Origin: a virus
Length of the DNA stretch: 40,028 nucleotides
Strand: one strand, 5' to 3'
IMG/VR virus record: IMGVR_UViG_3300028068_000038
Coordinates: 1-40,028 of that record
The notes under the pieces were generated by a model, which saw nothing but the letters and a program-made list of their open reading frames with translations, was not told the origin of the DNA and did not search any database. Made by a program: the position numbers and the translations under genes. This document shows positions 5,696-32,995 of the stretch, one piece after another (the first letter of the stretch is position 1; the number at the start of each line of letters is the position of its first letter).

Positions 5696-6846
5696 CGCAT
5701 CACCTCCAGCGCGTACCAGCTCACCGCGATGCCACCCGGTGTGCCCGGCGTTGTGTCGGTCAGATTCGAACCCACGATGGCATCGAGAAGCGTGCCCGCA
5801 AATGTCATCGCGGTACCACCAGCGATGGTGGCCGTGATACCGTAGCCGCCCGCATTGATCGTCACCGCCAGGTTGGCGAGTGTATCCGTGCTTCCAGCCG
5901 TGCCCAGAGGCAGATTCGTAACCGTGCCTGTCGCGTTGGTGATGGCCAGCGAGCCGCCGAGCACATCTTGCGATTGAGCCACTGCAAGCGTCCCGGCCAG
6001 AGAAGCCAGAACCGGAGCCGCGTTGACGACCGGAGGAACCCGCCAGGAATAGGTACCGTCGCAGACCACCTGGACACGATGAATATCGAGCGGAAGATTC
6101 TGGTACGAGGCCACGATCTGCGGCCCTTGATCCGTGGCCGCAAAGAGGCTGAGCGTCTCCACCAGCACGCCATCAATATACAGATCCGCGTTGCCGAACT
6201 CCGGACCTTTCAGTATGTAGAGCCGGAAGCCGTAGCCGCGATATTCGTAGCAGGCCCAGTCGCCAGCCGTGCCCGCATCGTCCATCGTGGTGTAGGCCGT
6301 GCCCGCGGCGAGAGGGACGTGCTCTGTGCCCTGGCTGCCGGCGATGGCCGTGCGCGCTGTTTGTGTCCATGCGCCGCTGGTGGCCAGCTTCTGATCGCCA
6401 GAATCGTTTGCTGCGAAGAATGCAATCGCGTCACCGGCCCAGTCGCTGGGGTACACCAGCATCTGCTGCTGCGGGATCTCCTCGAAGGTCACGTTCTGTA
6501 CGTCCCACATGCCGTTGCCCGTTTCGACGGGCACAACCTCAGTGGTGAACCTGCCGACGTACTGACGGCCTCCGCCATCCCAGTCGATGATGGTAAAGAA
6601 GCCGTCTTCGTACTGCTCGCCATACCTCTTCAGCCGCTGTACGCAAGCCCAAGTGCGCGCCAACCACGAAAAATTGAAGCTATGTCCGGTGTTCTGCGTT
6701 TCTCTCGTCCAGGGTGTGCCCCCGACAGCCTTTTTGTTCAGCTTGGTACTGACCCGCTTGCGCGTGAAGCCGTAGTTGGGCGTCATCGAATCCTGGATGT
6801 CTTCTTCCCAGATCGTCGTCGGGTTAAGAATGTCGCTGGCTGGCAT
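5692..6846 (-). CDS. Distal tail protein-like
   Basis: This 384-residue product starts at ATG 6846, sharing one base with the tape-measure stop (TGATG), behind a GGAGGAGG ribosome-binding site. The first 150 residues are compact, with WTRETQNTGHSFNFSW and FTIIDWDGGGRQYVGRF, a pattern resembling DUF2460-type distal tail proteins that form the ring closing the tail tube. The remaining 230 residues are beta-rich with Ala/Thr/Gly runs and look like added surface domains. Position directly after the tape measure supports a distal-tail role. Family assignment is moderate. Confidence 0.55.
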   Translation of the reverse strand: MPASDILNPTTIWEEDIQDSMTPNYGFTRKRVSTKLNKKAVGGTPWTRETQNTGHSFNFSWLARTWACVQRLKRYGEQYEDGFFTIIDWDGGGRQYVGRFTTEVVPVETGNGMWDVQNVTFEEIPQQQMLVYPSDWAGDAIAFFAANDSGDQKLATSGAWTQTARTAIAGSQGTEHVPLAAGTAYTTMDDAGTAGDWACYEYRGYGFRLYILKGPEFGNADLYIDGVLVETLSLFAATDQGPQIVASYQNLPLDIHRVQVVCDGTYSWRVPPVVNAAPVLASLAGTLAVAQSQDVLGGSLAITNATGTVTNLPLGTAGSTDTLANLAVTINAGGYGITATIAGGTAMTFAGTLLDAIVGSNLTDTTPGTPGGIAVSWYALEVMR

Positions 6847-9800
6847 CAGAGACCTCCTCCCGAGTTCTCGGCATAGCTGTCATTCACGGCGGAGCGGATG
6901 TTGTGCTTGTACTGGTCGAGGAAGCCCGCTACGCCCTTCGCGTCAATGGCGTGGACGTGCAGATGCACATCGCCCATCGAGGCAGGCTGAACAGGCATTT
7001 GCCCGCGATTTCCCTCCGTGACGGCCTTCACGATGTCACTGTTCTGAACCCCTGAAAAGATGCGCTCACCCGCGTGGTTCAAGTTGAGGCCAGTTTCCTG
7101 CACATAGGGATTGCCGGACGCGTAAGACGCGCCGCTGGCCGTGTACATGCTGCGCCCAGCCTTTTGCTCCGCGGTAATCTTCTCCATGAACTGCAGCAGT
7201 TCGGGTTTGATCGTGTTCTGGTAATAGCGACCATCGGCTGGCCCCATTTTGGTCGTCGTTTTGGCCGCCTCCATCTGAAGACTTTGCCCGTCTGAATAAG
7301 CGCCGAGATAATCCATCGAGCCGGAATGGTAGGCTTCCAGGTCCGCCGTGATCCGCGGGCGCACGGTCTTCAGGTCGTATTTCCGCGCTTCTTGGCCGCT
7401 GCCAACGGCTCCTATGATCGCCCCGGCCGCCGCGCCGATCACCATACCCATCGGACCGCCGATCATGAGGCCGAGCTGCGCGCCGCTGGCCGCGCCTTTC
7501 AGTGCTCCGCCAGCTCCGCCGCCTCCCCGCTCCGCCGCATACAAGCCCACCACATCTTGCCCGGCGGTGATCCCTTCAGATACGTCTTGCCGCGCTCCCG
7601 AGCCTCGAGAAGTTCCGGTGCCAGAATTCTTCTGGTCGAGTGCTTGATTCGCGGTCTTATTCAGCGATTCGGCTGAATCGAGGAATCCGGCAGCGGTCGA
7701 GCCTGGCGCTTTGCTGGTGTCCGGCATATGCGTGGTTTGATCGCGGTCGGTCGCAGCGCGCGGGCCAGCGGTGGCCGCACCGCCAAAAGAGCCGGAGTCT
7801 ACGGCAGATCCCGTACCCGGCTCGGTGTCCGCCCCCGCTCCCACACCGATAGAGGAGGAGCCACGAGCGAATCCGGCGTTGGCGTCGTTCAACTGATTGC
7901 CGGTACCCGCTGTTGTCGAGCCCTGATGATGGAAGAGATGTTTTAGCAGGTAATCGCTCTGTTGCTGCTGCTGACGGGGGTGCTGGAACACGCCTTTCAT
8001 CTCTTTGGCGAGAGGGAATTCTTCATAAAGATCGTTTTCCATGCCCTTCCAGAAACCACCTTTCCCTGGAGGTGCATCGGAAGTGACCGTGCCAACAGAA
8101 GCTTTATTGCCGAGCTGATACAGGCTGGAGATCGATCCGAGATATCCGGCAGCGGTTGATCCGGGCGCTTTGCTTATGTCCGGCATATGCGTGCTTTGAT
8201 TTCGGCCATCCGCCGTGCGCATACCAGCAGTAGCTGCGCCGCCGAAGGAACCTGCATCAGCGTCGGGGGCTAAATGAACCCCGGCTTCTGCCCCGGCTCC
8301 CGAGCCCACGCCCCCAGTGGTTGAGCCTTTGGCGCTCCACGCCGGCCCTCCCACCGCAGTCGAAGTGCTGCCCGTGCCCAAGGCCGCATTGCCGGCGGCT
8401 GTGGAAGCCGTGCCCGTGCCAGTTCCTGTGCTGACACCACCCGCGCCTGAAATCGTTGCACTGCCAACATGGATGGTGGCGGAAGCGATGGAAAGCATCT
8501 TGCTCGACTCGGCGCTCATGCCGGCTGCGCCGTGCATCTTGCCGCCCTTGCCGCCGTTGAACACATCACTGAAGATGCCGCTGTCGGGCGTCCGATCCGC
8601 AGCCTTTCCGGTGCCTTGGAAGTGCTGCACTAGCGAAGCGGCCGCATTGCCCGCGGTCTTGTCGCCCAACTTTTCAAGGTATTTGAGGGGGTGATTCATG
8701 CCCTCGAAGAGCTGATCAAATTCGCCAGCCATCTTCTTGTGCGCGTCTTGATTGGCCTCCACCATCTCAGCGTTGGCTTCCGCCTGCGCAGCGGCCGCGC
8801 GGCGCGCGTATTGCACGTCTGCATCCGCCTGCCCGGCCAGTTCCTCTTTGTATCGCTGGAGCTTCTCATCGAGTTCCGCTTGAATCGATGCTGTTTTCTG
8901 CTTCTCCGCGCTCAGCGATTTCACCCGCGCCTGGGCCTCAATATGCTCGGTTTCTTCGATGGACCGCTGATGCTTTGCAGCCAGTTCGTCGGCGGCTTTC
9001 TTCCTCTCCTCGGCATCTGTTTTGTCCTGTGCATGAACTTGCTGATCGGTTTGCTGCCCGATTTCATGTTCCATGGCCAGGCGTTCGCCAGGCGCCAGAT
9101 CCGGGCTGAGGTTTTTGATGCGGTTCTCGCCTTCCTGCTTGATTCGCGCCGTTCCGGTGAGGCCCATCAATTGAGTCTCCTGGCGCATATGTTCGAGTTC
9201 CGCCTGCTGTGTGCGGAGCCGGTTCATCTCCTCGTTATGGAATTTGGTGTGGACGTCTTCAACGGCCTGGGAGCTGGAGATGCCTCTGCGCTTCAGATCC
9301 TCGATAGCGGCCGCTTCCTGCGCGTGATAGAGCGCGGAGCCGCGCAGACCGGATTCCAGCGCCTGCTCGTGGATGCGCGCCAGTTCCTGCGCCTGAGATT
9401 TTGCATCGCCTGTTCCGCCGCCTCCCGTTCCGGCGAGATCTGCGAGAGACTTGTCGGCTTTAGCGTCCGCGAGCAAGTCCTTCGTCCCCTGAGTGCTCGA
9501 AATAGGCGCTCCGGTGCCGAAAACCTCGGTCATTTGACCCTTAGAAAATAAAGCCATCCCTCGATGCGGAGTGCCGACAGAGTTTCCGTAACGCCCCTCT
9601 ACTTCGGATGTATGCCTGGAATCTTCCGCGTCGATCTCGTGCTGTTTCCGCCTTTCTTCGGTGATCTCCTTTTCCTTGCTCAGTCTCCAGTCGTAGGCGT
9701 GTTCCAGCTCGATCGTATCGAGTTTTTGTTCGTGGCGTTGCTCGATAAGGTTCTCTTTGTTCAGCTTGTCGAGTTGTTCCTGAGCCTCCATCTGTTTGAC

Positions 9801-10436
9801 TTGTGCATCGTGCGCCCACCAGGTGTCGTGGATTGATACAAGCGCGTTTCCGCCAGGTATCGCCGCAAAGAGAGGATTTGTCGCGGCGCTGGCTGCTCTT
9901 CGTTTCAGTTCTTCAACTTCGGCCTCGTATTGCTTCACTGAGGCAGTGGCCTCGTTGATGCGCAGTCTGGTCGTCTCGATTGATTGCGTGTTGCCAAAGT
10001 CATCCTGTTTTGTCTTCGCAACCTTCGCGTTGTAATCCTCTACCGCCTGATTCACATTGAGGACGTTATGCCACAGCTTCTCCGCTCCTCGAACCGCCGC
10101 CTCGAAGACCATGCCGCCGATCTGTATCGCGCCCAGGGCGATCATCGCTCCGCTGACAGCGCCGATGGCGCCCATCACCGCCGGGCACTTCGAGATCACC
10201 GACTGCATGGCGCGCGGGATGCGCACGCCGAATTCTTCAGTTAGGAGGCGCACCTTCTCGTGTGCCGAGAGCGCCCCCGCGCCCACCTGGCCCAACCCTG
10301 CGCCCACCTTTGGGCCGACGCTTGCGCCCGCCGCGCCCAGCTTGGTCAGGTTCTGCTCAACGCCCGCGAGCACCTGGCTGGAGGTGTTGTCAACGACATT
10401 GACCGAGATTTGGACGGCGGAAGTCTCTACAGCCAC
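6846..10436 (-). CDS. Tail tape measure protein
   Basis: This 1196-residue protein starts at GTG 10436 with AAGGAG 6 nt upstream. It is the longest gene in the window, as expected for the ruler that sets tail length. At the usual 1.5 A per residue it predicts a tail near 180 nm. The N-terminus carries a Gly/Ala segment and a hydrophobic stretch (AVMGAIGAVSGAMIALGAI, about 90-110). Long charged helices rich in Glu, Lys, Gln and Ala follow at 140-600. A Gly/Ser/Thr-rich middle contains two copies of one module, then a hydrophobic Gly-rich stretch (SGAQLGLMIGGPMGMVIGAA). The C-terminus ends in VHLHVHAIDAKGVAGF, a common tape-measure tail motif. Confidence 0.88.
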   Translation of the reverse strand: MAVETSAVQISVNVVDNTSSQVLAGVEQNLTKLGAAGASVGPKVGAGLGQVGAGALSAHEKVRLLTEEFGVRIPRAMQSVISKCPAVMGAIGAVSGAMIALGAIQIGGMVFEAAVRGAEKLWHNVLNVNQAVEDYNAKVAKTKQDDFGNTQSIETTRLRINEATASVKQYEAEVEELKRRAASAATNPLFAAIPGGNALVSIHDTWWAHDAQVKQMEAQEQLDKLNKENLIEQRHEQKLDTIELEHAYDWRLSKEKEITEERRKQHEIDAEDSRHTSEVEGRYGNSVGTPHRGMALFSKGQMTEVFGTGAPISSTQGTKDLLADAKADKSLADLAGTGGGGTGDAKSQAQELARIHEQALESGLRGSALYHAQEAAAIEDLKRRGISSSQAVEDVHTKFHNEEMNRLRTQQAELEHMRQETQLMGLTGTARIKQEGENRIKNLSPDLAPGERLAMEHEIGQQTDQQVHAQDKTDAEERKKAADELAAKHQRSIEETEHIEAQARVKSLSAEKQKTASIQAELDEKLQRYKEELAGQADADVQYARRAAAAQAEANAEMVEANQDAHKKMAGEFDQLFEGMNHPLKYLEKLGDKTAGNAAASLVQHFQGTGKAADRTPDSGIFSDVFNGGKGGKMHGAAGMSAESSKMLSIASATIHVGSATISGAGGVSTGTGTGTASTAAGNAALGTGSTSTAVGGPAWSAKGSTTGGVGSGAGAEAGVHLAPDADAGSFGGAATAGMRTADGRNQSTHMPDISKAPGSTAAGYLGSISSLYQLGNKASVGTVTSDAPPGKGGFWKGMENDLYEEFPLAKEMKGVFQHPRQQQQQSDYLLKHLFHHQGSTTAGTGNQLNDANAGFARGSSSIGVGAGADTEPGTGSAVDSGSFGGAATAGPRAATDRDQTTHMPDTSKAPGSTAAGFLDSAESLNKTANQALDQKNSGTGTSRGSGARQDVSEGITAGQDVVGLYAAERGGGGAGGALKGAASGAQLGLMIGGPMGMVIGAAAGAIIGAVGSGQEARKYDLKTVRPRITADLEAYHSGSMDYLGAYSDGQSLQMEAAKTTTKMGPADGRYYQNTIKPELLQFMEKITAEQKAGRSMYTASGASYASGNPYVQETGLNLNHAGERIFSGVQNSDIVKAVTEGNRGQMPVQPASMGDVHLHVHAIDAKGVAGFLDQYKHNIRSAVNDSYAENSGGGL
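7668..7860 (-). repeat. Tape-measure internal module, copy 2
   Basis: This stretch encodes the second copy of a module of about 60 residues in the tape measure. It includes GSFGGAATAG, then THMPDTSKAPGSTAAGFL. The same order recurs in copy 1 at 8130-8322 with conservative changes. The flanking residues differ, so this is a tandem-like duplication within one gene rather than a simple low-complexity run. Confidence 0.75.
8130..8322 (-). repeat. Tape-measure internal module, copy 1
   Basis: First copy of the duplicated tape-measure module, with GSFGGAATAG followed by THMPDISKAPGSTAAGYL. Together with copy 2 it makes up most of the Gly/Ser/Thr-rich centre of the protein. Confidence 0.75.
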
Positions 10437-10439
10437 GAT

Positions 10440-10844
10440 TTACTCCTTGCGGCGCTGGAACTTGGCCCCACAGCCAGGACATTCCCTGCCAAAGCGATTC
10501 TGTTGCCGCGTCCCGCAAGAGCCGCACGCCGGGTGGTGGCTCTCGAATGCAGCACGAGCGCGACCAAGAGCCAAAATCCCTTCTGCCTCGAAGCCAGCGA
10601 GGTCCCGGACCTGGAAGCCGATGCCCGCACGTTGGAGGGCATCAAGATGGAGCAGATACTCGCCAAAACGGTAATAGCCCCACGCCAGCGTGCGCGGCGG
10701 AATCTGGCGCTCCATCCTCTCGACGGTTTCGGGGCTGGCTCCAGAGGCCTCGCGCTGGATGCGGCTGCGCACGAAGTCGCTCTCGAAGATCTCTTCGAGG
10801 GCCATCCGCACGCCTTCCGCATCGCGCCAAACATCAATTGCCAT
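10440..10844 (-). CDS. Small tail-assembly gene product with C-terminal zinc ribbon
   Basis: The frame is open from 10925, but ATG 10844 (134 residues) is preferred because it slightly overlaps the previous gene and has GAAGAGG just ahead. The body (about 1-100) is helical and charged. The last 30 residues hold C107-x-x-C110 and C122-x-x-C125, a clear zinc-ribbon pattern (CGSCG, then CPGCGAKF). The gene occupies the slot of the second tail-assembly chaperone between the tail tube and the tape measure. A zinc ribbon is unusual for that slot. It could be made as a fusion with the upstream protein by ribosomal frameshifting, but no slippery sequence was recognised. Confidence 0.6.
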   Translation of the reverse strand: MAIDVWRDAEGVRMALEEIFESDFVRSRIQREASGASPETVERMERQIPPRTLAWGYYRFGEYLLHLDALQRAGIGFQVRDLAGFEAEGILALGRARAAFESHHPACGSCGTRQQNRFGRECPGCGAKFQRRKE

Positions 10845-11571
10845 CCTCTTCGACCTTTGCAGCCGCGGGAGCGAAGAGCGTGTCCACGGCCGCGACCTTG
10901 TGGTAGGTGTCCATGAACTCGACAACGGCTTCGCGGTCCGGAGTCGTGCCGTCCACCGTGTAGCCTTCGACGCTCACGATCAGCTCGTCATACAGTTCGG
11001 CGAGCGTGGCCTGCGCGCCCAGCCATTGCGTCTTTCCGTTGCGGCTTCCTCCCACCACGCGTGAGCGGCTGCTATCGCGAGAGAAGCGCCGCTGCTGGTC
11101 AGCCGTGGGCGTCTTGAAGTTGTGGCAGAGACCATGGAACTTCCGCATGATGCCGTCGTCTCCGGCGCTCCAGACCGCGTCGAGGAAGACCGACTCCTGG
11201 CCGAGCGCAATCGGATCGTCGTCGGCCGGATCGCTTGCCGAGACGGAGATGATGGCGTTGGCCACGCCCAGGCGATGCGAGAGAGGCAGCAAGGCTTTCC
11301 AACCCTCGACCTGGTCGATACTGGTTTTGTCTGCGGGCAGTGCATAGCCGTTGGCTGTGATGAGGCATTGTTCCACCAGGTCTAGCCGCGCGGCGCTGGA
11401 GTCGAAGCTGTCAACCCGCTTGCCGTTCTGGTTTTCGCTGGTGGAGAGGATGGCTTCGAAATAGCGCAGCCATAGCTTTTTCGTGATGCGCGCGAGGGTG
11501 AAGGCATACTGCTTGCCGCGATCTTCGATGGTGATGATGCGCGGCGCTTTCAGTTCGATTGATGCAGACAT
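10834..11571 (-). CDS. Putative tail-assembly chaperone
   Basis: This 245-residue protein starts at ATG 11571 with GAAGGACC upstream. No catalytic motif is seen. The N-terminus (IELKAPRIITIEDRGKQYAF) resembles the opening of phage tail-assembly chaperone-type proteins, and the rest is mixed helix with many charged residues. It lies between the tail tube gene, separated by the tRNA and terminator, and the zinc-ribbon and tape-measure genes, where lambda G and Mu gp41 analogues sit. Those are known to bind the tape measure before tail assembly. The role is inferred from position. Confidence 0.5.
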   Translation of the reverse strand: MSASIELKAPRIITIEDRGKQYAFTLARITKKLWLRYFEAILSTSENQNGKRVDSFDSSAARLDLVEQCLITANGYALPADKTSIDQVEGWKALLPLSHRLGVANAIISVSASDPADDDPIALGQESVFLDAVWSAGDDGIMRKFHGLCHNFKTPTADQQRRFSRDSSRSRVVGGSRNGKTQWLGAQATLAELYDELIVSVEGYTVDGTTPDREAVVEFMDTYHKVAAVDTLFAPAAAKVEEDGN

Positions 11572-11703
11572 AGGTCCTTCTTTCGTTTGGGAGTTGAGAT
11601 TTTGTACAACAGCCAGGTGAAGGACCCGGTCTTTCTTGAAGCTCCGCGCAGGTCATGCGAGGCTTCGACCGCGGCGAAGGGATGCCACGGATGGTACGGA
11701 AGT

Positions 11704-11781
11704 TGGTTGCCGGGGCGGGACTCGAACCCGCATCATTCAGGTTATGAGCCTGCCGCTGGAACCATTCCAGCTCACCCGGCG
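11704..11781 (-). tRNA. tRNA with CAU anticodon (Met, initiator-like or Ile2), CCA encoded
   Basis: A full cloverleaf can be drawn on the minus strand, 5' end at 11781. The acceptor CGCCGGG pairs with CCCGGCA at six of seven positions, leaving a C1-A72 mismatch. A GCTG/CAGC D-stem encloses a GG-containing loop. The anticodon loop is CTCATAA (CAU). The T-arm is GCGGG-TTCGAGT-CCCGC, and ACCA follows at 11707-11704. One extra base lies between the acceptor and D-stem. C1-A72 is a hallmark of bacterial initiator tRNA, but the D-stem and the anticodon stem (AGG/CCT instead of three G-C pairs) are not typical of initiators, so the amino acid is open. It sits in the tail operon just after a terminator. 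Confidence 0.85.
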
Positions 11782-11783
11782 GT

Positions 11784-11820
11784 AAAAAAAGGGGCGCGCC
11801 TCCCCGTTCCAACGCGCCCC
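11784..11820 (-). terminator. Intrinsic terminator after the tail tube gene
   Basis: On the minus strand GGGGCGCG and CGCGCCCC form a perfect 8-bp stem (11820-11813 with 11798-11791), followed at once by seven T (11790-11784). It starts 11 nt after the tail tube stop codon and ends at the tRNA 5' end. It would reduce transcription of the tape measure and tip genes relative to the abundant tail tube, unless read through or antiterminated. Confidence 0.85.
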
Positions 11821-11831
11821 CAGGAGAAACT

Positions 11832-12857
11832 TTAAGCGCCCGGAGCCGCCAGATAGGAAGCGACGGAGTTGGTCACCCCGATGGTGATGGGAGGAACTCC
11901 AGCCGCCTGGTAGTTGGTGGTTTCGTCGTTTTCGACCTGCCACACGACCATGTCGCCGTCGAAGCCGAGCTTGGTCGTCTTCAGGTGCATCTGGGGCACG
12001 GAAATCGTCAACTGCGCGGCCGCCCCGGAATTGACAGCCAGCTCGTAATCGCAAGGGGTGTCGTTATCGAAGCGCGCGTAGACGTCGTCGGTGTCCTTGG
12101 CCGCGAAGACCGTCGAGAGCGAGAACTTGGGGTTGCCCTTGCGCACGAAGATTCCGTAGAGGCCGCCGCCGGGCGCTCTGTGAACCATGAGCTGATTCTC
12201 CAGCTTGAGCGTGGTGCTCATGTGGCGTCCGACGAGAGATGCGGGGGCGCCGACCGGGCCAAAGTTCAATACCGCGTCAGACCCCAAAAGATACGTCTCG
12301 GCTGGCGCGACGGGCAATGGAGCAGCCATCGATCCGAGGATCTGGATACCGGTGCCAGTCATGCCCAACTCCAACATGATGGCGCCGATCTCACTGATGG
12401 TGAGCGTGAGATCGCCGATGCACATGTCCGGGCACTTGTAATGGACGTCCTCGGTATCTTCCATGTAGATCGTCGTGGGCACCGCGGTGCGCGTCGATTC
12501 ATCAAAAGTGAAGGTGTGCGTATACGGCGCGGCCACTCCGACCACCGTGTCAGTACCCATCAGAAAAGCACACGCCCAGCCAGCCAGCCAGCTCGACAGC
12601 TCAAACTTGGCTCCGCTCAGAGCGGTGTCATAGGCCGTGATCTGGCCGTTGGTGGCGAAAGCCGTGCCCTTGCCGGCGTAGGCAATATCGGAGCGCCGCG
12701 TGATTTTACGTTCAAGCACCGCGGCCCCATCGAATCGCTGGCGCTGCGTGAGCGCCGCATCGGCCAGGGCGGTATTCCAGGCAAGCTGCGAGTTCACGCT
12801 GAGCATCAGGTTTCGGGCTGTTTTCCATTGCGAAAGAAAATTGAAAGGACCGGCCAT
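11832..12857 (-). CDS. Major tail tube protein
   Basis: The start is taken as ATG 12857 (341 residues, MAGPFNFLSQWKTARNL) because GAGGTGATT lies 4-10 nt upstream. ATG 12884 is in frame but lacks a good site. The protein is beta-rich with few charges and has Thr/Val runs typical of tail tubes. It is in the expected place between the connector genes (gp36, gpG and gp37 analogues) and the tail-assembly and tape-measure genes. A terminator follows directly, as expected for a highly expressed structural gene. No family motif proves it; the assignment rests on order, size and composition. Confidence 0.6.
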   Translation of the reverse strand: MAGPFNFLSQWKTARNLMLSVNSQLAWNTALADAALTQRQRFDGAAVLERKITRRSDIAYAGKGTAFATNGQITAYDTALSGAKFELSSWLAGWACAFLMGTDTVVGVAAPYTHTFTFDESTRTAVPTTIYMEDTEDVHYKCPDMCIGDLTLTISEIGAIMLELGMTGTGIQILGSMAAPLPVAPAETYLLGSDAVLNFGPVGAPASLVGRHMSTTLKLENQLMVHRAPGGGLYGIFVRKGNPKFSLSTVFAAKDTDDVYARFDNDTPCDYELAVNSGAAAQLTISVPQMHLKTTKLGFDGDMVVWQVENDETTNYQAAGVPPITIGVTNSVASYLAAPGA

Positions 12858-12896
12858 CTGAATCACCTCGGGTTGTGCGGCCATGGGCCGCCAAGC

Positions 12897-29641: not shown

Positions 29642-30129
29642 ACTCATCACGCGTTCACTCTCCCGCATCCCCTCATTCCGTGTCACGGGAGAAGATTGCA
29701 GAAAGTTTTCGCCCCGAGCAGATGGACCTTTACGCCGACCAGGCGCCCCTCCCAGGCAGCCTCAACGACGAAAGCGTCGTTCGCGGCGTCGTCACGGAAG
29801 CCATCCGCCACAGCACCAAAAGCAGGGAAGAGATAGCCGAACAGATGTCCGGCCTTTCCGGCGATCACATCACCGTTCGGATGCTCAATTCCTACACCAG
29901 CGAAGCCGCCGAGCAGCATCGCTGGCCAGCCCAGTACACACGGGCCTTTTGCCAAGTCATTGGTGATTGGGGACTTCTTCGCTGCATATCGGAGCGCTCC
30001 GGTTTCCACTTGATCAACGACGACGAGGTTCTTCTCCTCGATCTCGGTCGCCAGTTTCTGGTTCGCAAGCGGGCCGACGAGAAGATTGCTCTTCTCGAAG
30101 CACAGCTCCATGGGAAGGAAACGCTATGA
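29638..30129 (+). CDS. CII-like regulatory protein upstream of the transposase
   Basis: This 163-residue protein holds REEIAEQMSGLSGDHITVRM, then LNSYTSEAAEQHRWPAQYTR and FCQVIGDWGLLRCISERSGF. These blocks read like the CII/CP76-type regulators found just before transposase genes in Mu-like phages. It starts at ATG 29638 in an ATGA overlap and ends in another with the transposase. It may control transposition or lysogeny choice. The family call is from memory of the pattern. Confidence 0.55.
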   Translation: MNSSRVHSPASPHSVSREKIAESFRPEQMDLYADQAPLPGSLNDESVVRGVVTEAIRHSTKSREEIAEQMSGLSGDHITVRMLNSYTSEAAEQHRWPAQYTRAFCQVIGDWGLLRCISERSGFHLINDDEVLLLDLGRQFLVRKRADEKIALLEAQLHGKETL

Positions 30130-31970
30130 GCGCACAGCTCGCGTTGACCCTCCCCCTTCCGATGCCCGTTGCATCCCCGCAGCGCGTGCTGCTTCCTGAT
30201 CCAGACGATCAGGCTCAAGCCGAATCCCGCCTCGCCACACTGCAGATGCTCTTCGATTACCGGCGCGATCCCGCTCGATTCGGCAGGCTATGCCTCAACG
30301 ATGGCACGCCGGTGACCAGCTCCAGCCGCATGGTTGCCTACATGGCTGAGTCAGCGGGCGTGAGCGAAGGCACGATCTGGCTCTGGTTGCGTCGCTTTCA
30401 GCACGGCGGCCTCGCGGAGCTGGCTGACCACAAACGCAAAGACAAGAATCAGTCGCGCTTCTTCGCAGCCTATCCCAAGGCCGCCTGGCTCGCAGCCTAC
30501 CTCTTCCTCACTTGCAAACAGAGTTGCATGGTGGCCTACGAGGCCATCGTCCGCGACCCGGCGATGGTCGAAGTTCCGCCCGAGGATCTGCCCAGCTACG
30601 AGACGGTGAGACGCTGGCTTGCCTCAATGCCGCCCTCACTCACTGTCTACGCGCGGAACGGCCGCAAGGCCTACCAGGAGCGCATGAGTCCCTATCTCAC
30701 GCGCGGCTTCACGGATGTCTATTCCAACGCCGTCTGGGTGGGCGACCACATGATCCACGATGTGGAGTGCTTCAACGATACGTTTGGAAACGTGGAGTGG
30801 GGCGCGCCGATCCGCATCCGGCTTACCGGATGGCTGGACTATCGCTCGCGGATGCCCATGGGCGCGAGCTGGTGCTGGGAAGGCAGCTCGCGTTCAATCG
30901 CCGCGGCTCTGCGGCGCGGCGTCACCACATACGGCCCTCCCGAGTGCGTCTACGTTGACAACGGTAAAGACTACCGCAAAGTGGGCAAGGGCGCGCTTCC
31001 CGGCTACATGATGGAGTCGCCTCTGGCGCCAAAGAATTGGTGGAAGTCTGAGATAGATTCCATCGCCGCCACCGGCTTTCTGGCGCGTCTCGGCATCGCA
31101 CTCACTCACTGCGCGCCTTATCACGGGCAAGCAAAGCACATCGAGCGATTCTGGGGATCGGTCCACGAACACTTCGATAAATGCTTTCCGACATACACCA
31201 GCGGCAACCCTTTCACGCGCCCCGATGCCACCTCCGCAGCCATGATGGAGCACCGCAAGCTGGCGCGCCATGGTCATGTCGCTGACTCGAACCATCCGAA
31301 GGCCAGCCTCTTCATTGCCGCCTGTCTGGCGTGGATGGAGGAATATGCTGACACGCCGCACACGGGCGAAGGAATGGACGGTGGCACCCCGCGCCAGGTC
31401 TTCGAGGCCAATCTTAATCCCCGGCAAAAACCTACGCCGGATGCGGCCACGCTCGCACTGCTGATGGCCGAGCACGAAAAGCGCCTGGTGCAGGAGTGCG
31501 CAATCCACCTGAATAAGCGCCGGTACACGCCCATCGACCAGCCTGGTTGGATCGCTCTCCACAATCTCAATTCGTGCGAAGTGCTGATCGCCTATGAACC
31601 AGGCGCGCCGGAAGACGCGGCCGCTTTGGATCTGGATGGAAACTTTATCTGCGCTCTGCGGACTGAGGAACTCGTCAGGTTCGCACCTGGTGATCCGCAC
31701 ACCAAATCCCTGGTGCAAGAAAGTATGCGCCAGCGCCGGCACCTCGAAAAGCAAACGCGCGAGGCGCTGCAAACCATCTCCCTCGTCGCCCGCCAGAACG
31801 GCGCTCAGTCGCCGCTGGAAGCCATGGCCAGCAGGCTGCAACTGCCCGCCGATACCAACATCTCCGACCTCGTTACGCAGCGCAAACCACGCTTCGGACC
31901 GGACAAACAGGCCGTCGCGCCCAAAAGCGCCTCGGAAATAGCCAGCAGTTTTTTGGAGGAACTCAAATGA
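30126..31970 (+). CDS. Transposase, MuA-like DDE
   Basis: ATG 30126 overlaps the preceding stop (ATGA), with AAGGAAA upstream; the open frame from 29967 is not used. The 614 residues include an N-terminal HTH (YMAESAGVSEGTIWLWLRRF at about 72-91) and an integrase-type core with D207 (VWVGDHMIHD), D278 (VYVDNGKDYR) and E340 (AKHIERFWGS). The rest is a Mu-type C-terminal domain (LNKRRYTPID region near 465) and a helical tail for MuB contact. It cuts and joins phage ends to target DNA during replicative transposition. MuA has 663 residues; this is slightly shorter. Confidence 0.93.
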   Translation: MSAQLALTLPLPMPVASPQRVLLPDPDDQAQAESRLATLQMLFDYRRDPARFGRLCLNDGTPVTSSSRMVAYMAESAGVSEGTIWLWLRRFQHGGLAELADHKRKDKNQSRFFAAYPKAAWLAAYLFLTCKQSCMVAYEAIVRDPAMVEVPPEDLPSYETVRRWLASMPPSLTVYARNGRKAYQERMSPYLTRGFTDVYSNAVWVGDHMIHDVECFNDTFGNVEWGAPIRIRLTGWLDYRSRMPMGASWCWEGSSRSIAAALRRGVTTYGPPECVYVDNGKDYRKVGKGALPGYMMESPLAPKNWWKSEIDSIAATGFLARLGIALTHCAPYHGQAKHIERFWGSVHEHFDKCFPTYTSGNPFTRPDATSAAMMEHRKLARHGHVADSNHPKASLFIAACLAWMEEYADTPHTGEGMDGGTPRQVFEANLNPRQKPTPDAATLALLMAEHEKRLVQECAIHLNKRRYTPIDQPGWIALHNLNSCEVLIAYEPGAPEDAAALDLDGNFICALRTEELVRFAPGDPHTKSLVQESMRQRRHLEKQTREALQTISLVARQNGAQSPLEAMASRLQLPADTNISDLVTQRKPRFGPDKQAVAPKSASEIASSFLEELK

Positions 31971-32995
31971 ACGGAAAGGCAAGCAGAAAGATGGCACTCG
32001 AAGACGAACGGGAATTTGATACCGCCGCCCGCCTACGCATCCACGATTATCTTGCGCGCACCGGGCTCTCGCAGCCCGACTTCGCGCGCCGGATCAATTA
32101 CTCGTACGACACGCTGCGGCTGTTTCTCACGGATCGCTATTACCGGATCGGCGCATCGGCGCGCAACGTGATCGCAGCCGCCGACGGCTATATGCAGGAG
32201 CATCCCATCGGCACCAGCGCGCGCATCCTGGGCGAACTCTACGACACCAGGAACGTGCAGATCATTCGCGACACCATCGAGCAGCTCCTGCGCCGGCCCG
32301 TTGCCTACATGCTCTACGGCGCGCCGGGAAATCAGAAGTCATTCGCTCTGGAACATGAGGTTGCGCAACTGAACCTGCGCGAGCTGGCCGCAAGCGACAA
32401 GGGTCGCCAGGCCTTTTATGTCTACGTGCGGAAAAATATCCGCCCACGGGACATCATCCGCCGCATCGCGGTCGAGTGCGGATGCCGAGTCAACGCACAG
32501 ATTGAATCGATGATTTCAGAGCTGCGCTTCCGTTTCGACGGCCGCCGCGTGGTGTTGATCTTCGACGAGGCGCAGCGGCTCTCGATCGAATGCCTGGAAA
32601 CCATTCAGGAATTGCTTGATCGGCCGCCGTATTTTTCAATCCTCCTCGCGGGCTCGCAGGATCTGAAGACGAAGCTGGATGAATTCTCCGCGACGCTGGA
32701 GCAGTGGAACAGCCGCATCATTGCCAGGGTGCTGCTGCCCGGACTCGAAAAGCAAGAAGCCCGCGGCATCATCGAGCGCGAGATCGGGATGTTATTGCTC
32801 CAGCGCACTTCCGACGATGCCAACCATCTCATTGACAAGCTCATCGCGGGGGCAACCGTGCCGGATGCCTTTAACGGAAACCGGACCTACATCAACATCC
32901 GCACCTTGACCAACGCGCTCGATCAGATTAAGGCCACGGCTCCTCCTCCGACTGATCCCGAACCGGCCGGCGAGAAAGTTGAGGCGATCTCATGA
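31967..32995 (+). CDS. MuB-like AAA ATPase, transposition target factor
   Basis: This 342-residue protein starts at ATG 31967 (ATGA). The N-terminal 60 residues are a helix-turn-helix (IHDYLARTGLSQPDFARRIN). The AAA domain shows YGAPGNQKSF at 117-126, a Walker A with N-Q before K-S, Walker B VVLIFDEAQ at 195-203, and ILLAGSQDL near 225. MuB-type proteins bind DNA as filaments and direct the transposase to targets away from the phage. The layout matches MuB and IS21 IstB/TniB relatives. Confidence 0.9.
   Translation: MNGKASRKMALEDEREFDTAARLRIHDYLARTGLSQPDFARRINYSYDTLRLFLTDRYYRIGASARNVIAAADGYMQEHPIGTSARILGELYDTRNVQIIRDTIEQLLRRPVAYMLYGAPGNQKSFALEHEVAQLNLRELAASDKGRQAFYVYVRKNIRPRDIIRRIAVECGCRVNAQIESMISELRFRFDGRRVVLIFDEAQRLSIECLETIQELLDRPPYFSILLAGSQDLKTKLDEFSATLEQWNSRIIARVLLPGLEKQEARGIIEREIGMLLLQRTSDDANHLIDKLIAGATVPDAFNGNRTYINIRTLTNALDQIKATAPPPTDPEPAGEKVEAIS

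Follow-up and report, generated by a model that had tools for sequence, protein, structure and literature searches.

The window analysed here is the whole stretch of 40,028 bases from an IMG/VR viral record, and it carries one tRNA gene, with the anticodon CAU, among the genes for the phage tail. The locus raises the question of which kind of CAU tRNA a phage would carry at such a place and how it would be used. The sequence-only reading had left its identity between an initiator-like, an elongator Met and an Ile2 tRNA. On the basis of sequence comparisons we consider it probable, at roughly 60%, that the gene encodes a functional, phage-borne, initiator-like tRNA(CAU).

Gene, cloverleaf and place in the tail operon

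The gene, 78 nt long with its encoded CCA, is located at positions 11704-11781 on the minus strand and was supported by ARAGORN, Rfam RF00005, covariance models and the alignment of two lineages. ARAGORN called it as tRNA-Met(cat), running from 11781 to 11704, as the sole tRNA of the window, and RF00005 matched it at 42.3 bits, above its gathering score of 29; cloverleaf, score and CCA are those of a bacterial-type tRNA. The well-formed cloverleaf with encoded CCA that had been read from the letters was thus confirmed, and the covariance score, on which that reading had staked the gene, lies above the threshold.

Positions within the tRNA are numbered in the standard register, in which a 7-bp acceptor stem is followed by A73-CCA; the Rfam alignment shifts the 5′-end by one base. 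In the standard register the acceptor stem starts with C1·A72, G2-C71 and C3-G70. The mismatch at 1-72 that had been noted before is present in this register and is kept in a diverged copy of the tRNA from a related locus (L004), and in both lineages a strong Watson-Crick pair is thus missing at 1-72, as in initiators. The anticodon stem is formed by C28-G42, A29-U41, G30-C40 and G31-C39, while G27 and A43 are unpaired, which leaves a stem of 4 bp. Its description as a stem without the three G-C pairs of initiators (29-41, 30-40, 31-39) was right for 29-41, which is A-U, and went too far for the other two, which are both kept. The linker between acceptor and D stem has 3 nt instead of 2, the D stem has up to 5 bp, and the T loop, UUCGAGU, resembles that of elongators. 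The unpaired G27·A43, the extra D-arm nucleotide with the possible 5-bp D stem and the kind of T loop had been missed in the first description. Regarding the minimum-energy fold, the L004 copy adopts exactly this cloverleaf, and the window copy favours an alternative fold on paper.

The position of the tRNA in the tail operon was borne out, with the tail-tube gene on one side, a tail gene of 245 aa on the other and the tape-measure gene beyond, all on the minus strand. In the direction of transcription the tail tube protein gene (11832-12884; Pfam PF18906 Phage_tube_2) is followed by a terminator-like hairpin, the tRNA, a structured leader and the gene for the 245-aa protein. The hairpin was read from the sequence at 11784-11820, in the interval between tail-tube gene and tRNA, and consists of GGGGCGCG/CGCGCCCC with a 14-nt loop and seven T; the automated terminator and promoter scan had a loop limit of 8 and thus did not list it. 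The called gene for the 245-aa protein (10834-11571) keeps its position in relatives and had no match in Pfam or PHROG; judged by its position, it may have a role in tail assembly. The tape measure protein gene starts with GTG (6846-10436). The minus-strand frames 10440-10925 and 10834-11571 overlap in the interval that separates the tail-tube from the tape-measure gene. This interval is the usual site of a frameshifted pair of tail-assembly chaperones, and the two frames are without family match.

No sigma-70-like promoter was detected by a sequence scan of positions 11500-12000, and transcription of the tRNA by read-through is therefore inferred.

The structured leader, 132 nt with three hairpins read from the sequence (11572-11703), precedes the gene for the 245-aa protein. 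Its third hairpin holds a segment, GGTCCTTC (11619-11626), that is complementary to the Shine-Dalgarno segment of the following gene, GAAGGACC (11573-11580). Homologues of this leader were found at L003, L004, L006, L011, L012, L014, L016, L018-L020, L023, L025 and L027-L029. Among 16 distinct leaders, the pairing between complement and Shine-Dalgarno sequence had a mean of 7.8 bp within the own leader, 6.6 bp when partners were swapped between loci and 4.2 bp with shuffled letters, and none of 1000 partner swaps reached the mean of 7.8 bp. Since the complement and the Shine-Dalgarno sequence covary, the leader is suggested as a candidate translational switch; an Rfam search with it gave no family match.

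The tRNA is carried by a 40-kb Mu-like transposable phage, since a Mu-type transposase (29967-31970, plus strand; phrog_310, rve and Mu-transpos_C domains) and an adjoining AAA ATPase (31967-32995, plus strand), assigned by domain match and MuB-like by its position, are located opposite the structural genes. The DDE transposase with adjacent ATPase is combined with terminase, portal, protease, head, neck and tail genes, a typical siphophage set. The tRNA was also considered as an att-site remnant of an integrase phage, which was rejected in view of the Mu-type transposase and of a tRNA sequence identical to none of the initiator genes fetched.

Distribution and conservation among related phages

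Relatives were collected with the tail-tube protein and comprised 29 viral loci and one locus in a metagenome-assembled genome (MAG) labelled Acidobacteriaceae. ARAGORN found the tRNA in three of the 29 viral loci, namely L002, whose tRNA is identical to that of the window, L004 and L022; when whole records were scanned, four of 30 (29 relatives and the window) had a tRNA over the cut-off. At the junction following the tail-tube terminator, three of the 30 loci have the tRNA, 23 are readable and empty, three have other DNA (L005, L007, L021) and one contig ends before the site (L013). As most relatives are without it, the tRNA is dispensable. At L005 and L007 an insertion starting with GGGAATTACATACTTGACTCCC directly follows the T-run of the tail-tube terminator, at the junction where other relatives have the tRNA. 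The insertion at L007 ends in an inverted copy of GGGAATTACATACTTGACTCCC, as in an insertion-sequence-like element.

The diverged copy of the L004/L022 lineage occupies the same site and differs from that of the window at 7 of 78 positions (71/78, 91% identity), and the adjacent tail-tube gene is 80% identical between window and L004. Two pairs were changed in a compensatory manner, G6-C67 to A6-U67 and C50-G64 to U50-A64, and no pair of the cloverleaf was broken. The remaining differences fall on two positions of the D loop and one of the variable loop. C1·A72, G2-C71, C3-G70, G30-C40, G31-C39 and A73-CCA are unchanged. With a diverged copy at the same site and compensatory changes in it, the cloverleaf is more than a chance resemblance, and a pseudogene is made unlikely by these changes.

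In the tail-tube tree, L022 had been entered as a frame-broken translation and its long branch is artefactual. Without L022, the tRNA-bearing rows are those of the window and L004, and the nearest neighbour of L004, L029, is without the tRNA. With this neighbour, the tree would be compatible with a single ancestral gain followed by losses, with two separate gains or with a transfer.

The nearest provirus was found in the MAG labelled Acidobacteriaceae (G001:C108, about 10.7-48.5 kb; L325, L326, L032, L327); it is near-complete and adjoins a fructose PTS operon and an OprB porin gene. The best-scoring match of the flanking PTS protein in the other 20 genomes of the family searched was 35% identical, and among plasmid records, a set that is not a balanced bacterial sample, the eight matches listed were 44.6-48.4% identical and all from Azospirillum. 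Since the flanking gene looks unlike those of the family on the label, the contig may be misbinned, which we raise only as a doubt.

Initiator-like and elongator-like features

For the assignment to one of the three CAU isotypes, covariance models for initiator, elongator Met and Ile2 were built from the CAU tRNA genes of genomes related to the Acidobacteriaceae-labelled MAG. The tRNA of the window scored 61.3 bits with the elongator Met, 52.1 bits with the initiator and 52.0 bits with the Ile2 model (filters off), and that of L004 scored 61.1, 48.0 and 46.0 bits, respectively (default filters), with models that represent a single host family. The initiator model was thus not the best-scoring one for the window tRNA (52.1 against 61.3 bits, with models from one host family), and the scores, as far as these models reach, speak against a plain initiator. 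They lean towards the elongator because both the D arm (UgAGCU, UGGUU) and the T arm (UUCGAGUCC) resemble those of elongators in the model alignment. In the register of the elongator model 11-24 is C-G, the extra nucleotide allowing other registers, and the initiators of the comparison family have A11-U24 in 12 of 12 unique genes, a case of the purine 11-pyrimidine 24 combination of bacterial initiators, and a UUCAAAU T loop.

The comparison with cellular CAU tRNAs, of the kind that had been proposed together with the isotype models, gave a divided answer: the models favour elongator Met, and 1-72 and 31-39 are initiator-like. All unique genes for elongator Met (10/10) and Ile2 (22/22) in the comparison family have G-C at 1-72, and the initiators have T-A, A·A or C·A (12/12 unique, none G-C). 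Position 1 of these initiators is T, A or C opposite A72, and T1-A72 thus occurs in cellular initiators there. Elongator Met has U31·U39 in 10 of 10 unique genes (9/10 rows of the model alignment), at the place of G31-C39 in the phage tRNA. The anticodon loop of the latter, CUCAUAA, together with C39 is the same as in the initiators of the comparison family. G2-C71 and C3-G70, which matter for formylation and are expected in initiators, are also present in elongator Met of this family and do not discriminate.

The lack of the three G-C pairs had been taken as a mark against an initiator, a view that is weakened by two comparisons. With an A29-U41 initiator as query, 191 plasmid records matched, the best 12 of the 191 (Azospirillum, Tistrella) over 77 of 77 bases, and Azospirillum, Rhizobium and Ensifer were the commonest names among the 191; by this sequence comparison, A29-U41/G30-C40/G31-C39 is a normal form of the initiator stem on alphaproteobacterial replicons. 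Viral contigs were moreover scanned for CAU tRNAs by their anticodon stem, counting only matches with an ARAGORN tRNA (22 and 8 were left out). Among the matches listed, G-C at 1-72 was found in only 2 of 83 unique tRNAs with the AGG/CCT stem, that of the phage tRNA, and in 2 of 106 with the GGG/CCC stem. The commonest state at 1-72 in both sets was C·A (26 of the 83 and 21 of the 106, among the matches listed). These final sets supersede a survey count of 89 unique tRNAs, which had pooled loci from a pattern fixing G27.

Because viral tRNAs with an initiator stem rarely have G-C at 1-72, and because A29-U41 is normal in alphaproteobacteria, the phage tRNA is best read as a mosaic, with an initiator-like acceptor end and anticodon stem and elongator-like D and T arms, and not as an unaltered host initiator. 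The marks by which initiators are functionally distinguished, C1·A72 and G30-C40/G31-C39, are of the initiator kind. Elongator-leaning scores, C11-G24 as aligned to the elongator model, UUCGAGU, the open 27·43, an unusual D loop, the absence from most relatives and the lack of a promoter detected at 11500-12000 count against this reading.

An elongator tRNA-Met, whose 1-72 pair decayed or which serves in both elongation and initiation, is the foremost alternative and in our view an unlikely one. Its model was preferred by about 9 bits for the window and 13 bits for L004, in agreement with the D and T arms. However, C1·A72 is the same in the two lineages although compensatory changes occurred elsewhere in the acceptor stem, and C1·A72 and G31-C39 stand against the uniform G-C at 1-72 and U31·U39 of elongator Met in the comparison family (10/10 each).

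If the phage tRNA is initiator-like, it would be part of the late tail-gene transcript, reached by read-through of the terminator behind the tail-tube gene, and would then be released by the tRNA-processing enzymes of the host and charged with Met. Formylation and exclusion from EF-Tu would be possible, since 1·72 is unpaired and G2-C71 and C3-G70 are kept. The tRNA could then add to the fMet-tRNA available for initiation in late infection, at a time when the host's own initiator may be limiting or damaged, to the presumed benefit of the phage. In a statement of PMC11497404, C1-A72 is given as the basis of formylation.

Alternative roles and relation to known systems

A replacement initiator that withstands VapC or other host enzymes directed at tRNAfMet, with recognition spoiled by the altered D arm, A29-U41 and the open 27·43, would be a further explanation, to which we attach a small probability. 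VapC enzymes are described as cleaving tRNAfMet in the anticodon stem-loop (PMC4105405, PMC8522696), between A38 and C39 (PMC4105405), and evasion of such enzymes has been proposed for phage tRNAs (PMC10264068). The CUCAUAA loop and C39 are the same as in the initiators of the comparison family, though, and where the anticodon of tRNAfMet is under attack, phages are stated to avoid this tRNA as a rule (PMC10264068).

It is also conceivable, but doubtful, that phage initiator-like tRNAs are freed from selection against a 4-bp stem and that the open 27·43 relaxes the choice of start codon, e.g. to AUA, in a looser, phage-supplied initiation. In the survey of PMC13092985, a 4-bp anticodon stem is reported for 82 of 50,849 bacterial tRNAfMet, and such tRNAfMet are predicted to be selected out, because AUA could serve them as a start codon. 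In the viral sets with an initiator-like stem (L184-L187, L210-L324, L328-L447), 27·43 was open in 6 of 83 (AGG/CCT) and 12 of 106 (GGG/CCC), i.e. in 18 of 189 unique tRNAs among the matches listed. Against the reported bacterial 82/50,849, the 18/189 of the matches listed gave a Fisher p of 1.8e-25, in a comparison of different pipelines with uncurated viral sets. This excess is a lead and not a result, and a greater tolerance of mismatches in phage tRNAs may be all that it reflects. Relaxed decoding of start codons through the open 27·43 is speculation.

The start codons of the phages themselves did not follow the tRNA. The suggestion that it might bear on GTG starts did not hold up, since the start of the tape-measure gene does not track its presence: GTG is found in the window and L002 and ATG in the tRNA-bearing L004 and L022, and among the tRNA-lacking loci GTG is found in L012 and L021 and ATG in nearly all others. 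Shine-Dalgarno-led ATA openings of at least 40 codons numbered 7 in the window (3.6 expected), 3 in L004 (0.8) and 4 in L022 (1.0). In tRNA-lacking loci there were 5 in L029 (0.8 expected), 3 in L032 (1.2) and 0 in both L003 (1.6) and L010 (1.0). A link between the tRNA and ATA start codons was rejected, the excess being also found in the tRNA-lacking L029 and L032.

We give little credence to a role as a mark for RNA processing, in which excision of the tRNA would define the 3′-terminus of the tail-tube transcript and the 5′-terminus of the one that follows, with its use in translation being secondary. The tRNA is placed exactly between the hairpin that resembles a terminator and the downstream leader, but 23 of 30 loci have a readable junction without it, and tRNA-specific features needless for cutting, e.g. 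the anticodon loop, were kept. An Ile2 tRNA with lysidine at C34 had rightly been left beside initiator-like and elongator Met among the candidates, and it has CAU, A73 and 52.0 bits with its model on its side, but is highly improbable at nine bits under elongator Met and with C1·A72 in place of the G-C of 22/22 unique Ile2 genes in the comparison family.

The preferred reading, a phage-borne initiator-like tRNA, has precedents. Phage-encoded tRNAfMet is already known from T5 and cyanophages (PMC4810235), and the tRNA described here is a variant of unusual shape. The likeness to T5 and the cyanophages, as described in that source, is an initiator-type tRNA carried by a tailed phage; the difference is that they encode many tRNAs, whereas a single tRNA, changed in its D arm and open at 27·43, is found here in a 40-kb Mu-like phage. 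CCA is reported to be templated more often in initiator genes than in those of elongators (PMC5143459). Among the literature titles listed, which alone are weak evidence of absence, none referred to a transposable phage with an initiator tRNA as its single tRNA. Initiator tRNAs of phages have received little study, and one that stands alone, is conserved and has an odd structure offers, in a small temperate phage, a clean case for asking whether a phage benefits from an initiator of its own and whether an open anticodon stem leads to a looser choice of start codon, as in the 4-bp-stem hypothesis for tRNAfMet.

With the A29-U41 initiator of Azospirillum and other alphaproteobacterial replicons, the phage tRNA shares C1·A72, the CAGG/CCUG stem, CUCAUAA and A73-CCA, but the former has U27-A43, A11-U24, a regular D arm and a UUCAAAU T loop. 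The 4-bp anticodon-stem tRNAs of PMC13092985 have 27·43 unpaired as well, but are reported there from bacterial genomes, in which tRNAfMet is almost never of this form. Among phage records, 84 matched the tRNA by BLAST, including that of Microbacterium phage Big4 (L092), whose tRNA-Met has, as here, the long linker and a D stem rich in G+C, together with GCAGG/CCTGA and UUCGA. The CAGG/CCUG stem with a weak or absent 1-72 pair is shared by the tRNA-Met of Big4, Gordonia phage GodonK (L093) and the viral contigs L199 and L251, and L199 and L251 also have the longer linker and G+C-rich D stem of Big4 and of the tRNA described here. The odd D arm is therefore not unique to the phage of the window, given the similar form in Big4, L199 and L251. 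The tRNA-Met genes of Big4, GodonK, L199 and L251 differ in sequence and are located beside other tRNA genes, whereas that of the Mu-like phage stands alone.
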